Assembly (NCBI GenBank): GCA_904418845.1
Contig: CAJFQC010000008.1
Span: 62,001-126,000 of the forward strand
Reading direction: 5' to 3'
Origin: an uncultured Ruminococcus sp.
GTDB lineage: Bacteria; Bacillota; Clostridia; Lachnospirales; Lachnospiraceae
Length of the DNA: 64,000 bases
Every line of letters starts with the position of its first letter. Positions within the stretch are counted from its first letter, which is position 1. The position numbers and the translations under genes are program-made. The notes under the pieces were generated by a model. It was not told the DNA's origin, made no database searches, and worked only from the letters and a program-made list of their open reading frames with translations. Shown here piece after piece: positions 24,968-30,616 of this stretch.

Positions 24968-25587
24968 TCGTCACGAGAGTTGAAGCGCTGACAAAAATGA
25001 AATACAAAGTATATCTTGACGGACAGTTTGCCTTTGTGCTTTACAAGGGCGAACTGTCCCGTTTTGGCATCAAAGAAAGAGAGGATATCACGGAACAGGC
25101 AGTGGAGAAAATCCGTGTGGAAGTGATCCTTAAGCGTGCAAAGCTGCGCGCCCTGCACCTTCTTGAAGATATGGACCGTACAGAGGCAGCACTCAGGGAA
25201 AAGCTCATGCAGGGGATGTATCCCCCGGACGCTGTAGAGGGAGCAATCAGGTATGTGAAGTCTTTCGGATATCTGAATGATGCGCGATATGCGGAGAATT
25301 TTGTGCGGAGCAGGAAAGACAGCAAGAGCCGGAAGGAGATATGGGCGATGCTTATGAACAAAGGTGTGTCCGCGGAATTGGCTGAGGCTGCTTTTGAGGC
25401 GTGTTATGACAGTGATGAAGATGGCGGGGAGCAGGAGGCGATCCGCAGAATATTGCGCAAGAAACGGTACGATCCGGCGGAGGATGACGAGGCAAAAACA
25501 CAGAAAATATACGGATATCTGGCACGGAAAGGTTTCCGCTATGACGCTGTCCGTCAAGTGATACAAAATTATAATCACCATGCTTGA
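24964..25587 (+). CDS. recX: Regulatory protein RecX
   Basis: A 207-residue RecX, which binds RecA filaments and limits their activity. The three-helix repeats are visible: [41 protein letters not shown] and [20 protein letters not shown], each with the family's Y-L/F-N-D-x-x-Y-A-type or helix pattern. The ~55-residue N-terminal extension ([29 protein letters not shown] region) is usual in Firmicutes. Overlaps recA by 4 bases; same SOS operon. The rny promoter overlaps its stop codon. Confidence 0.94.
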
Positions 25588-25612
25588 CATTGTTGTGAAA
25601 ACAGTATAAAAT
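25584..25612 (+). promoter_or_regulatory. Promoter of rny
   Basis: TTGACA at 25584-25589, 17-base spacer, TAAAAT at 25607-25612, overlapping the last codon of recX. Confidence 0.6.
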
Positions 25613-25668
25613 TTAACTGTTGTATTTTAGTAATATGTACAATGAAAATTAAATAAGGAGGTGCTCCT

Positions 25669-27223
25669 GTGCAATTAAGTCTAGGCTTATGTATACTGAT
25701 TGCCGTGGCCCTCGCGTTGATAGTTGGGATCATTTCTCATTTTGCGACGATTTCCAATCTGAAGAAGAATGCCGAGAGTAAGATCGGAAACGCGGAAGCA
25801 AAAGCGAGAGAGATCATTGACGATGCTGTGAAAACTGCTGAGACGACGAAAAAGGAAGCTCTTTTGGAAGTAAAAGAGGAGTCTATCAAGACAAAGAATG
25901 ATCTTGAGAAAGAGACGAAGGAAAGAAGAGCGGAGCTGCAGCGCTATGAAAAGAGAGTGCTTGCAAAGGAAGAGGCGGTTGACAAGCGTTCGGACGTCCT
26001 GGAACACCGGGAGTCAAAGCTTACAGCAAAGGAAGAACAACTTCGCCAGCGTGAAGCCAGGGCAGAAGAACTAAGTCAGAAACGTGTGCAGGAACTGGAA
26101 CGAATCTCAGGACTTACCTCCGAACAGGCAAAAGAATATCTGTTGAAAACTGTTGAAGAAGATGTTAAGCATTGCGAAGATGGTCAGAGAGCTGGAAGCC
26201 CAGGCAAAAGAGGAGGCTGACAAGAAAGCGAAAGAATATGTTGTCAATGCCATCCAGAGATGTGCCGCGGACCATGTAGCAGAGACGACGATCTCTGTCG
26301 TACAGCTTCCGAGCGATGAGATGAAAGGACGCATTATCGGCCGGGAAGGAAGAAATATCCGGACTTTGGAGACGCTTACAGGTGTGGAATTGATCATTGA
26401 CGATACACCGGAGGCGGTCGTTCTCTCCGGATTTGATCCTATCCGCCGTGAGGTTGCCAGGATCGCTCTTGAGAGATTGATCGTGGACGGACGTATTCAT
26501 CCGGCCAGGATTGAGGAAATGGTAGAGAAGGCTCAGAAGGAAGTCGACTCGATGATCAGAGAAGAAGGAGAGGCCGCAGCGCTCGAGGTGGGAGTGCCGG
26601 GCATCCATCCGGAACTGATCCGTCTCCTCGGACGCATGAAGTTCAGAACAAGCTACGGGCAGAACGCTCTGAAGCACTCGATCGAGGTGGCTCAGCTTGC
26701 AGGACTTCTGGCGGGTGAAATCGGCATTGATGTCAGAATGGCAAAACGTGCCGGACTTTTGCATGATATAGGAAAATCTATCGACCATGATGTAGAGGGG
26801 TCACATATTCAGATAGGTGTGGATCTGTGCAGAAAGTACAAGGAATCCGCAACTGTTATTAATGCTGTGGAAGCGCATCACGGTGATGTGGAGCCGCAGA
26901 CACTGATCGCCTGCGTGGTACAGGCTGCCGATACGATTTCAGCGGCAAGGCCGGGTGCAAGGCGTGAGACCATTGAAACATATACAAACAGATTGAAACA
27001 GTTAGAAGAGATTACCAACCAGTTTAAAGGTGTGGACAAATCTTTTGCCATTCAGGCAGGTAGAGAGATTCGTGTTATGGTAGTTCCGGAGCAGGTATCT
27101 GATGATGATATGGTGCTTGTGGCAAGGGATATCGCGAAGCAGATAGAGTTTGAGCTGGAATATCCCGGACAGATCAAAGTAAATGTAATCCGTGAATCAC
27201 GGGCGACAGATTACGCGAAATAG
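25669..27223 (+). pseudogene. rny: Ribonuclease Y gene split by a frameshift
   Basis: RNase Y is normally one ~520-residue protein. Here frame 1 runs from GTG 25669 (good AAGGAGGTG site) to a stop at 26220: an N-terminal membrane helix (LCILIAVALALIVGIISHF) and a long coiled coil to VEEDVKH, then unrelated residues. The rest continues in the next frame from about 26174 to 27223: [19 protein letters not shown], the KH domain ([19 protein letters not shown]) and the HD domain ([23 protein letters not shown]), ending ATDYAK. After the His codon ending at 26171, family members have Glu-x-Ala, but a single T precedes the Ala codon, consistent with a 5-base deletion. A TTG at 26153 or ATG at 26162 could restart the catalytic part as a ~353-residue soluble protein. 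True mutation and sequencing error cannot be separated here. Confidence 0.85.
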
Positions 27224-27253
27224 CAATGGATCACAACAACAGATGAAAGACCG

Positions 27254-27281
27254 GCCCCTGTCGCAAGACAGGGGCTTTTTT
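27254..27281 (+). terminator. Intrinsic terminator of rny
   Basis: GCCCCTGTC (27254-27262) pairs with GACAGGGGC (27267-27275), GCAA tetraloop, followed by TTTTTT. A strong classical terminator 30 bases after the rny stop. Confidence 0.92.
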
Positions 27282-27360
27282 CGTTTTATCGGGAAAGTCC
27301 TGCGGGCTGAACTATAGTTTTTTCTGATAGTAATCTGGGGAAAGGGAAGGAAAATTAAGT

Positions 27361-27900
27361 ATGAGTGAGCAGATCAAACGATTAAAAAGAGAGTTGAAAT
27401 TTAAAGGGGCGATCATTGATTTTTATCAGGATACGATGGAGATCAACGGAGACCACACGGCAGTCTGGGACTTCATCAGGCACAAGGGAGCGGCAGCGGT
27501 CGTTCCGGTGACAGAGGAGGGGAAGATCCTCATGGTGCGTCAGTACAGAAATGCCCTTGACCGTTATACGCTTGAGATTCCGGCGGGAGCACTGGATGAA
27601 GAAAACGAGCCGGGAAGAGAGTGTGCCGCCCGGGAATTGGAGGAGGAGACCGGTTTCCGCAGCGAGAATCTCGAATGGCTCATCACTCTGCGCACGACAG
27701 TTGCCTTCTGTAATGAGCGGATCGAAGTCTATGTGGCAAAGGATCTGATCCCCTCAAAACAGAATCTGGATCAGGATGAATTTATCGATCTTCAGACATA
27801 TACATTGGATGAACTTAAGGAAAAGATATTTTCCGGAGAGATCGAGGATGCCAAGACTGTGGCATCCCTCATGGCATACGCTGTCAAATACAAAGAATAA
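27361..27900 (+). CDS. Nudix hydrolase, ADP-ribose pyrophosphatase-like
   Basis: A 179-residue Nudix hydrolase of the NudF/ADP-ribose diphosphatase group. The Nudix helix is within GALDEENEPGREC...AARELEEETGF, containing the REx2EE metal-binding core; IPAG before it and VRQYRNALDRYTLEIP are typical of the ADPRase subgroup. Likely reaction: ADP-ribose to AMP and ribose 5-phosphate. GGGAAGG precedes ATG 27361. It lies directly upstream of the SpoIIM-like gene, as nudF does near spoIIM in Bacillus subtilis. Confidence 0.9.
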   Translation: MSEQIKRLKRELKFKGAIIDFYQDTMEINGDHTAVWDFIRHKGAAAVVPVTEEGKILMVRQYRNALDRYTLEIPAGALDEENEPGRECAARELEEETGFRSENLEWLITLRTTVAFCNERIEVYVAKDLIPSKQNLDQDEFIDLQTYTLDELKEKIFSGEIEDAKTVASLMAYAVKYKE

Positions 27901-28560: not shown

Positions 28561-29907
28561 TCAGCAGCCGGTTCCATACCGGTCCGGTTCAGATTTGAGC
28601 CGTGCCTGTGTCAGGAGTACGAGAAACGCCAGAGCGGAAACGATCAGCTGGCTGACGAGCAGACTCCAAAGATAACCTTGTATCCCGAAACTGGGAATGG
28701 CAAGAAAAACTCCCGCGATGCGGACGAGCAGTCCGATTGTGTTGATGAGGAAAGTAAATGTTGTTTTTCCCAGACCATTGATGGCGCTCATCAGGGCGGT
28801 GTTCGTGTACATAAACGGACAGATCCATGCGAGGGTGAGGATGAACCTCCCCGCGGAACTGCTGTGGAAGAGTACAGTTCCGATGAGGTTTCCGAAGATA
28901 AGAAAGAACAGGCAGCTTGACAATCCGAGGATAAGGCAGCTTCCCACTGCTTTTTTGAGGAGCTGAACGATACCGGTACGGTTTCCGGAAGCCTGGGCCG
29001 CGCTCACTGCCGGCATGAGGACAGTCCCTACCGAGTTGGTAATGGCAGACGGGAACAGGATGCAGGGCAGTGCCATTCCTGTCAGCACTCCGTACATACT
29101 GAGCGCTTCGCTTGCGCTCATCCCGGAGAGTTTGAGACAGGCAGGGATAGAAGCGGCTTCTACGCTTTGCAGCAGAGTGACTGCCGTGCGGTTGGCGGTC
29201 AGAGGTACAGAGAGGGAGAGCAGTTCCCGCAGATTTCCTGTAAGGGCAGAAAGGGCAGGGCGCCGCAGGACGGGTTCTTGCCTGGACAGAAAACGGGAGG
29301 AGAATAAAGCAGAGGCAAATTCTCCCGCCACGATCCCGGCCGCAGCAATTTGGATTGAAGGAACACGCCCGCTCTGTTTCATAAACAAAAACAGGAAAAA
29401 AACAAACAGTATACGCAGTACCTGTTCTACAAGCTGGCTTAGCGCGGGGAGCGCGGCTTTTTGAAGCCCGAAGCTGTATCCGCAGATACAGCTGTGTATA
29501 GCAGCACAGGGCAGGGCATAGGAAATGATCACCAGCAGTTCTGCGCATCGGGGATCACCGAGGAAGTGCTGTGCGATAAACGGGGCGTTCTGTTGGACAA
29601 GGATCACTTCCACGAAAGTGAGCAGAAGAGTAAGGCTAAGAGCAGTGTAAAGTATGCTCTTAGCCTCTTTTTGTCTTCCCAGTGACACTTTTTCCGCTAC
29701 CATGCGGGAGACGGCTGTGTGTATGCCTGCGGTGCTGAGAGAAAGGCAGAGTGCGTATACGGGAAATACAAGCTGATACAATCCTACATTTTCCTCGCCA
29801 AAGGCGTGGCTTAAAAAGATGCGGAAGAAGAAGCCCATGAATCGTGTGATGAACCCGGTGGCAGTCAATATCATGGCTCCCTGGAATAATTTGTGCTTTG
29901 AAGACAT
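28561..29907 (-). CDS. SpoVB/MurJ-like polysaccharide flippase (MOP superfamily)
   Basis: A 448-residue membrane protein with about 12-14 hydrophobic helices, of the stage V sporulation protein B/oligosaccharide flippase group. The N-terminus FQGAMILTATGFITRFMGFFFRIFLSHAFG matches the group's start, and GLYQLVFPVYALCLSLSTAGIHTAVSRMVAEK is typical of helices 2-3. SpoVB-type proteins are thought to move lipid-linked precursors across the membrane for spore cortex or wall synthesis. Only a weak GAGG precedes the start. It converges on the SpoIIM-like gene. Confidence 0.85.
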   Translation of the reverse strand: MSSKHKLFQGAMILTATGFITRFMGFFFRIFLSHAFGEENVGLYQLVFPVYALCLSLSTAGIHTAVSRMVAEKVSLGRQKEAKSILYTALSLTLLLTFVEVILVQQNAPFIAQHFLGDPRCAELLVIISYALPCAAIHSCICGYSFGLQKAALPALSQLVEQVLRILFVFFLFLFMKQSGRVPSIQIAAAGIVAGEFASALFSSRFLSRQEPVLRRPALSALTGNLRELLSLSVPLTANRTAVTLLQSVEAASIPACLKLSGMSASEALSMYGVLTGMALPCILFPSAITNSVGTVLMPAVSAAQASGNRTGIVQLLKKAVGSCLILGLSSCLFFLIFGNLIGTVLFHSSSAGRFILTLAWICPFMYTNTALMSAINGLGKTTFTFLINTIGLLVRIAGVFLAIPSFGIQGYLWSLLVSQLIVSALAFLVLLTQARLKSEPDRYGTGC

Positions 29908-30046
29908 ATCTGCAACCTCATATGGCGCTTTTGCAATAGCTCAAGACGCTCCAGTCCGCTCGTAAAACCGCATTTCGCGCTAATTATGGCGGCCGGTGCA
30001 TGACTGAACTATTACACACTTTTTACAGCATATGTCAATTCACGGC

Positions 30047-30075
30047 TTGACAGAACAAAGCCTGAGTGATATCCT
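30047..30075 (+). promoter_or_regulatory. Promoter of the Rrf2-isc operon
   Basis: TTGACA at 30047-30052, 17-base spacer, TATCCT at 30070-30075; start near 30082, inside a candidate operator. Confidence 0.6.
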
Positions 30076-30083
30076 ACAAAAGT

Positions 30084-30108
30084 AAATCCCAGTAAAATAC
30101 TAGGAAAT
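30084..30108. promoter_or_regulatory. Candidate Rrf2/IscR-type operator
   Basis: An imperfect palindrome: arms AAATCCCAGTA (30084-30094) and TACTAGGAAAT (30098-30108) match at 8 of 11 positions around an AAA centre. Its position over the start point of the operon whose first gene encodes an Rrf2 regulator suggests autorepression. Inference only. Confidence 0.5.
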
Positions 30109-30160
30109 AGACAGGAGCTTTGCGATACAAGAGAAAAGCTTTGATAAAGAAGGTGAGAAA

Positions 30161-30616
30161 GTGAAGCTGTCTACAAAAGGAAGATACGGGCTGCGGGCGC
30201 TGATCGATCTTGCGCAGAACAGCAAAGAAACACCGGTTTCGATCACCAGCATATCGGCGCGGCAGGACTTGTCGGAGCGGTATCTGGAGCAGCTGATGTC
30301 TATGCTGAAAAAGGCGGGCCTGGTAGAGAGTGTCAGGGGAGCGCAAGGCGGATATGTTCTGGCGAAGGATATAAAAGAGATCTCTGTCGGCGACGTGCTG
30401 CGGGCGCTGGAAGGTTCGCTGGAACCTGTGGAGTGCGCAGGGCTTGAACCGGACGGTGGATGCAGAGCTTCTGACAGCTGCGTGACGAAATACGTCTGGC
30501 AGAGGATCAACGAGAGCATAAACCGGACGGTGGACGAGATCATGCTCGACCAGCTCGTACAGGAAAGCGGGAAAAAAGAATACACAGGCGCGGACCGCGC
30601 GGGGTGCAAAAATTAG
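30161..30616 (+). CDS. Rrf2 family transcriptional regulator (IscR/CymR-like)
   Basis: A 151-residue Rrf2 winged-helix regulator. The N-terminus MKLSTKGRYGLRALIDLAQ and the recognition region SERYLEQLMSMLKKAGLVESVRGAQGGYVLAK are classic. Three Cys (in VECAGLEPDGG-CRASDSC) lie where IscR holds its Fe-S cluster, though the spacing C-x9-C-x5-C differs from Escherichia coli IscR. As the first gene before iscS and iscU it likely senses Fe-S or cysteine status and represses this operon. GTG 30161 follows AAGGTGAG. Confidence 0.92.
   Translation: MKLSTKGRYGLRALIDLAQNSKETPVSITSISARQDLSERYLEQLMSMLKKAGLVESVRGAQGGYVLAKDIKEISVGDVLRALEGSLEPVECAGLEPDGGCRASDSCVTKYVWQRINESINRTVDEIMLDQLVQESGKKEYTGADRAGCKN

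Follow-up and report, generated by a model that had tools for sequence, protein, structure and literature searches.

Much mRNA decay in Bacillus subtilis, and probably in many other bacteria as well, begins with RNase Y. The message of the enzyme is itself a target in B. subtilis: according to the accessible part of one study (PMC10303841), RNase Y cuts its own 5'-untranslated region (5'-UTR) and early open reading frame (ORF), and the regions that control rny were placed in the 5'-UTR and within ~100 nt of the start of the ORF, with a 600-nt fusion being the most susceptible. The second described system which is close to the present case concerns RNase III, which in B. subtilis cuts duplexes formed between distant parts of one mRNA; in the available portion of that report (PMC11780869) the duplexes measure 10-36 bp with at most 505 nt between the cleavage sites, and rny is not named there as an RNase III target. 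As far as the titles and abstract openings of the open-licence literature go, neither a long-range duplex in rny nor RNase Y in Lachnospiraceae was found.

The locus studied here lies in a window of 64,000 nt, namely the whole stretch of DNA that was analysed, from an uncultured Ruminococcus sp. of the Lachnospiraceae, and all features described below are on the forward strand. Its rny has the domain order and sequence of RNase Y (Rny/YmdA, TIGR03319) together with a promoter and a terminator of its own; it differs from that family in that the frame is broken in the assembly between the coiled coil and the KH domain. We speak of a membrane-anchored endoribonuclease by sequence class, so that the activity of these frames is predicted at most. 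A sigma-70-like promoter with 11 of 12 consensus bases is found at 25584..25612, within a 50-nt run (25580-25629) of alignment columns at least 83% identical among 24 same-genus loci. The intrinsic terminator hairpin at 27253..27276 comes from a signal scan in which promoter-like sites occurred at the chance rate (2 versus 2.0 expected) and terminator-like ones little above it (3 versus 1.4). Between promoter and gene lies a conserved leader with a Shine-Dalgarno (SD) sequence (25652..25669), an 18-nt run which is fully invariant in the 24 loci. The initial annotation, made from this DNA alone, had taken the flanks of the gene to be intact, and both the promoter and the terminator are indeed present. 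The two genes upstream resemble recA and recX.

Between these flanks the gene is read in two pieces. The N-terminal fragment (25669..26220, 183 aa) has a GTG start, a membrane helix which was recognised by eye alone and a coiled coil, and ends after the frame break. It overlaps an ORF of 356 aa in a different frame (26153..27223), which contains the KH and HD domains, and these two ORFs stand in place of the continuous frame of about 515-525 codons expected for RNase Y. In the profile search, positions 4-163 of TIGR03319 (RNase_Y) are matched by the shorter ORF and positions 164-514 by the longer one. The Pfam search places the RNase_Y_N region (PF12072, 155 bits) in 25669-26217, and the end of PF12072 with KH_1 and HD all in the 356-aa frame, where PF00013 (KH) scores 32 bits (cut-off 21.5) and PF01966 (HD) 72 bits (cut-off 22) in 26153-27220. 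The ORFs, TIGR03319 and Pfam thus confirm the proposal that first drew attention to this gene, that its N-terminal and KH/HD parts stand in different frames. The break itself falls between 26172 and 26173: after 26172, five alignment columns are absent, each of which is carried by at least 90% of the 24 same-genus loci, and no second gap of such kind within rny is listed in that alignment. The place of the break and the loss of five bases had therefore been read correctly, and the comparison with close relatives that had been recommended, once run, gave one frame in the relatives with the five bases present. By eye there is no slippery heptamer at the junction. In the window's own genome (2.40 Mb, 51 contigs, completeness 95.28), the C-terminal part of RNase Y has a single match, and the search of the whole assembly found no second rny copy.

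The break is rare and shows no sign of age. A frame of at least 499 aa is present in 55 of the 58 genomes with an rny match (61 were searched, the own genome included); the three with short frames are the window's genome, G030, where the contig ends, and G058, where the match starts at contig base 1. Among the genomes inspected, the short or split rny of G030, G058, G082 and G242 results from contig ends rather than frame breaks, and among the matches listed the frame of G477 has 458 aa. One same-genus frame (L135, G557:C65, 2246-3733) has 496 aa; some of the N-terminal helix region is missing in comparison with relatives, as are several residues close to the C-terminus. The junction sequence occurs in one of 58 same-genus genomes (at most 3 mismatches) and in one of 200 family genomes taken nearly one per genus (at most 2 mismatches), each time the window's own, and has no exact match in viral contigs. 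In the comparison with the nearest relative (L003), 17 synonymous and 4 non-synonymous codon differences fall in the 167 codons of the N half, and 58 and 3 in the 348 of the C half. A decayed pseudogene was accordingly rejected: there is one lesion, the ratio of synonymous to non-synonymous differences is 75:7, and relaxed selection is not seen. Since neither half shows decay, the break must have happened very recently or result from an error in the assembly. When the ORFs of four relatives were compared with the own contig over 132 kb (ORFs of at least 100 aa; 25, 57, 20 and 18 matched, amounting to 14,568 aa for the best relative, G033), rny was the sole frame-shifted gene found. Many further rows of this comparison were flagged for stops, short coverage or extra matches; the six that were checked residue by residue proved to differ in their starts or stops or to be shadow frames, the rest being judged from the table. 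One flagged ORF, in three pieces near 29741-30252, coincides partly with intergenic DNA and partly with a long ORF that is read in a different frame. On the best reading, one recent event produced the break: the sampled strain mutated, or the assembly went wrong at a block that is identical in related species.

The five-base loss lies just outside two conserved segments, here called El1 and El2, both of which are intact. El1 (26089..26166) covers codons 145-170, in a numbering that starts at GGA four codons before the GTG start, and is the 5' arm of a predicted long-range mRNA duplex; the 3' arm, El2 (26987..27091), belongs to the same coding sequence and follows about 820 nt further downstream. 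Within about 4 kb of the alignment of 24 loci, no run of columns at least 83% identical exceeds the 77 nt of 26089-26165, and the promoter run of 50 comes next. In 32 same-genus gene sequences (31 genomes, G001 being represented twice; 2 of 34 loci were dropped as they had no long frame), codons 145-169 keep nearly one codon each, the means of 12-codon windows being about 0.95-0.98 versus a gene mean of 0.71, and the constraint drops at codon 170. The El1 stretch is again the strongest anomaly after the leader in 66 genes of the family-level set, which consists of loci L031-L096 by match rank, some of them titled just Clostridia, Bacillota or Oscillospiraceae, and of f1 genomes by kinship table. 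Among 204 non-redundant genes (212 frames before a 97% identity filter), the top constraint falls, along with the leader, on codons 154, 159, 449, 164, 155, 166, 165 and 158, and codons 443-478 form a second, weaker constrained stretch. High synonymous constraint is also found in the 204 genes at codons 219, 296-297, 333-334 and 437, which the duplex of El1 and El2 does not explain. The El1 core has one exact match and two matches with 3 mismatches in the own genome, and the three Rfam 15 matches within 25000-27500 each score far under the gathering threshold. A local hairpin in El1 was considered and rejected, RNAalifold giving merely -4 to -8 kcal/mol. As the initial annotation was made without relatives, the embedded RNA element could not have been seen in it.

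The proximity of El1 bears on how the break is explained. We see roughly an even chance that it is a mis-assembly, in which, supposing a mixed sample, the identical block would have tangled the assembly graph, the join 3' of the block would have lost five bases, and the rny of the organism would be intact. In many species of the genus, El1 and the adjoining bases agree completely over 77-101 nt; of 32 same-genus loci, 17 match the block exactly for 77 nt or more, in stretches of up to 101 nt ending at 26172. In other assemblies, 7 of 11 contig ends in or near rny, a small and hand-picked set, are at or beside conserved segments: at or near El1 in G030, both G082 pieces and G242, in El2 in L104, and at the leader in G014 and G015, the four in L011, L017, L030 and L183 being away from them. 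Such clustering at the leader, El1 and El2 is what one would expect if assembly graphs break at blocks that species have in identical form. Contig ends elsewhere prove nothing on this join; with the break at the 3' edge of the shared block, however, they make a mis-assembly plausible, though not proven. The reading is further favoured by rny being the sole gene found with a frame break where the contig was compared, by the long frames in 55 of 58 genomes noted above, where two of the three exceptions are cut by contig ends and the third is the window's, and by the quasi-essential nature of RNase Y in B. subtilis, as stated in the accessible text of PMC8266666.

We consider it somewhat short of an even bet that the break is a real and very recent mutation, which would leave the strain without full-length RNase Y, or with a re-initiated soluble KH-HD piece, and dependent on RNase J together with an enzyme of RNase E/G type. 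Both halves are open and conserved, and the genome encodes RNase III, an RNase J above the cut-off, and a 419-aa frame which resembles RNase E/G at 280 bits, below the cut-off of 326. B. subtilis is viable without rny or with solely cytoplasmic RNase Y, although, in the part of the report at hand (PMC11313650), the generation time of the null strain is more than two-fold longer and the strain with the cytoplasmic form is similarly impaired. The junction is, however, in none of the relatives searched, selection is not visibly relaxed, and the internal starts first proposed, TTG 26153 and ATG 26162, sit within El1 with no good SD sequence ahead of them by eye. A soluble piece made from either, if real, would necessarily start inside El1; the duplex, if formed, would cover both starts. 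It is highly improbable that programmed +1 frameshifting bypasses the break to yield the full-length protein. A +1 shift would connect the two frames, and the first ORF ends with an SD-like run followed by TGA-C, but relatives whose gene is intact carry nearly the same DNA, so nothing at the junction evolved for a shift, and the peptide read before the stop would displace conserved residues of the coil. This candidate was rejected, given that relatives read the gene in one frame and that the junction pattern is confined to the own genome in both searches. The observation of the break is correct; as biology, the break is ordinary or artefactual.

The two constrained stretches, in turn, are complementary to each other in nested order, and form a predicted long-range mRNA structure whose arms are conserved and complementary over species beyond what shifted registers give. 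The window's own arms make 60 pairs at -51.7 kcal/mol, from 26091-27087 to 26166-26987, with 9 bp as the longest uninterrupted helices of the predicted duplex. A fold of the own mRNA (25622-27285) contains 42 arm-to-arm pairs; of the 14 sequences in this set of folds, 12 have 23-52 and the other two, which are distant, have none. In an unbiased scan of 780 window pairs (24-codon windows in 18 species, with 8 synonymous shuffles each and the leader outside the scan), codons 145-168 against 457-480 rank first at -8.84 kcal/mol below the synonymous shuffles, the next being -5.28. Over 180 sequences, that is the 204 minus 23 outgroups and L133 (lost through the codon numbering) and including 31 same-genus loci, 51 pairs are 86.2% paired versus 25-48% at 44 shifts that keep the codon phase, a percentage favoured by the pairing register having been read from one relative in the set; the figure is 83.9% over 149 sequences when the same-genus loci are left out. 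The summed covariation excess over independent columns, which the choice of register does not favour, is 0.80, and the best of the 44 shifts reaches 0.17.

For 102 of the 204 genes, the mean arm-to-arm energy is -46.9 kcal/mol versus -30.5 for other windows of the gene, and in 79 of these 102 species the arms are unequalled by any control window. At least 15 arm-to-arm pairs appear in the folds of whole coding sequences in 22 of 30 family-level species versus 1 of 30 synonymous shuffles, and the duplex is present in 3 of 23 outgroup folds versus 0 of 23 shuffles. Eight variable pairs between third positions, set against a null with matched marginals, give a Fisher p of 3e-8 with the pairs treated as independent, and double changes from one Watson-Crick pair to another number 31 in 81 disjoint species pairs versus at most 21 at 55 shifts. 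The relatedness of the species is handled by matched nulls and neighbour contrasts rather than by a phylogenetic model. Synonymous-site constraint, nested complementarity and its conservation are shown by computation, along with some covariation, on which the evidence is divided.

Several results count against the duplex. Given the two arms of 203 sequences joined together, RNAalifold does not return it. An ordinary RNA helix should tolerate G-U pairs, yet where both partners of a pair vary, G-U is depleted just as A-C is (0.765 and 0.749 of expectation, respectively). Differences in GC content between species may add to the covariation signal. There are 11 pairs in which 3 or more sequences carry a double change, which is not above the shifted registers (5-16); the pairs 155-468 and 154-470 show no covariation excess, and the strongest constraint of all, at codon 154, is unexplained by covariation. 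A first covariation ranking with mixed column types placed 150-472 at rank 15 and 157-466 at rank 161 of 52,507, with the others from 434 to 45,823. With synonymous shuffles of single species, the median z is -2.78 for 6 species of the genus, -1.44 for 36 at the family level and -0.60 for 23 outgroup species, and those beyond all 60 shuffles are 2, 8 and 0 respectively; the duplex is missing from the fold in 8 of 30 family-level species. In B. subtilis, a fusion with the initial 93 nt of the ORF equals the 600-nt fusion in autoregulation, according to the accessible text of PMC10303841, and so a downstream element is unneeded there.

Two other readings of the conserved block have to be weighed against these data. 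In the more probable of them, El1 pairs not with El2 but with the ribosome-binding site of rny (ACCTCC with GGAGGT), and initiation is repressed. The leader is the top nucleotide constraint in both the 66- and the 204-sequence sets, has one match in the own genome (at most 3 mismatches), and by eye its segment GGAGGTGCTCC (25657-25667) could form a small SD hairpin. The leader sequence at 25640-25669 reads TACAATGAAAAYTNAATAAGGAGGTGCTCC and recurs, with small changes, in most of the family-level loci printed (L031-L110, L235-L244), the TGAAAAYTNAATA part preceding rny also in certain more distant Clostridia; outside the family, other pairings in the SD hairpin may, by eye, stand in for GGAG/CTCC. 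Of 99 loci, 79 have the leader GGAGGT(G/A)C(T/C)C together with the in-gene ACCTC(C/T), 10 have neither and 10 have just one, after 10 of 109 loci were left out where the protein motif for locating the site was unmatched; common descent may account for such co-occurrence. Five loci carry ACCTCY with no leader motif, among them L005, L017 and L075, where no leader was found, and L070, which looks mis-assigned. In 43 of 153 species no place in the coding sequence is a better partner for the leader than El1, whose median rank is 5 of about 498, the leader having been outside the scan of 780 window pairs. El2, however, accounts for far more of the constrained codons, and does so with covariation, so we regard pairing with the ribosome-binding site as improbable. 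We think it more doubtful still that the constraint acts on the DNA or on codon translation with complementarity as a by-product. That G-U pairs are not favoured would agree with it, but the complementarity is nested over 51 pairs and lost at all 44 codon-phase shifts, and the duplex enters the fold of just one in 30 synonymous shuffles.

Taking the locus as a whole, we assign a probability of about 0.6 to the joint reading that rny is broken by a net loss of five bases, through recent mutation or mis-assembly, and that the adjoining block is an arm of a conserved duplex with a post-transcriptional role. With B. subtilis it would then share an rny mRNA controlled post-transcriptionally and a very strong SD sequence, possibly in local structure, whereas a long-range duplex between codons ~147-166 and ~449-480 is not described for B. 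subtilis in the accessible part of PMC10303841. A role for the duplex can be pictured as follows. When ribosomes on the rny message are sparse, the arms would pair; the paired message would be handled differently, most likely through cleavage by RNase III or a change in half-life; and the supply of RNase Y would thereby be set post-transcriptionally. RNase III reading a duplex inside rny seems the most economical version, a stabilising role or an SD switch being possible too. The duplex predicted here differs from the RNase III targets of B. subtilis in the available portion of PMC11780869, as its arms are about 820 nt apart, its helices are at most 9 bp uninterrupted, and both arms belong to one coding sequence. 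A wider proposal, tentative and rather unlikely as a whole, is that the duplex works as a lock on rny in Lachnospiraceae: thin translation would let the arms close, RNase III or another reader of double strands would cut or mark the message, RNase Y supply would be coupled to translation and to a second RNase, pairing of ACCUCC in El1 with the SD sequence would act as a switch, and the near-identical arm would be a predictable site of assembly damage.

A broken RNase Y taken by itself would be an ordinary pseudogene or an assembly flaw, and the duplex embedded in the gene matters more. Blocks that are identical between species can damage assemblies in exactly those genes which then look interestingly broken. 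The predicted conserved duplex in rny is therefore the part worth following: lying between two coding segments of the gene in many species of a large gut family, it is a concrete and testable candidate for a control element.
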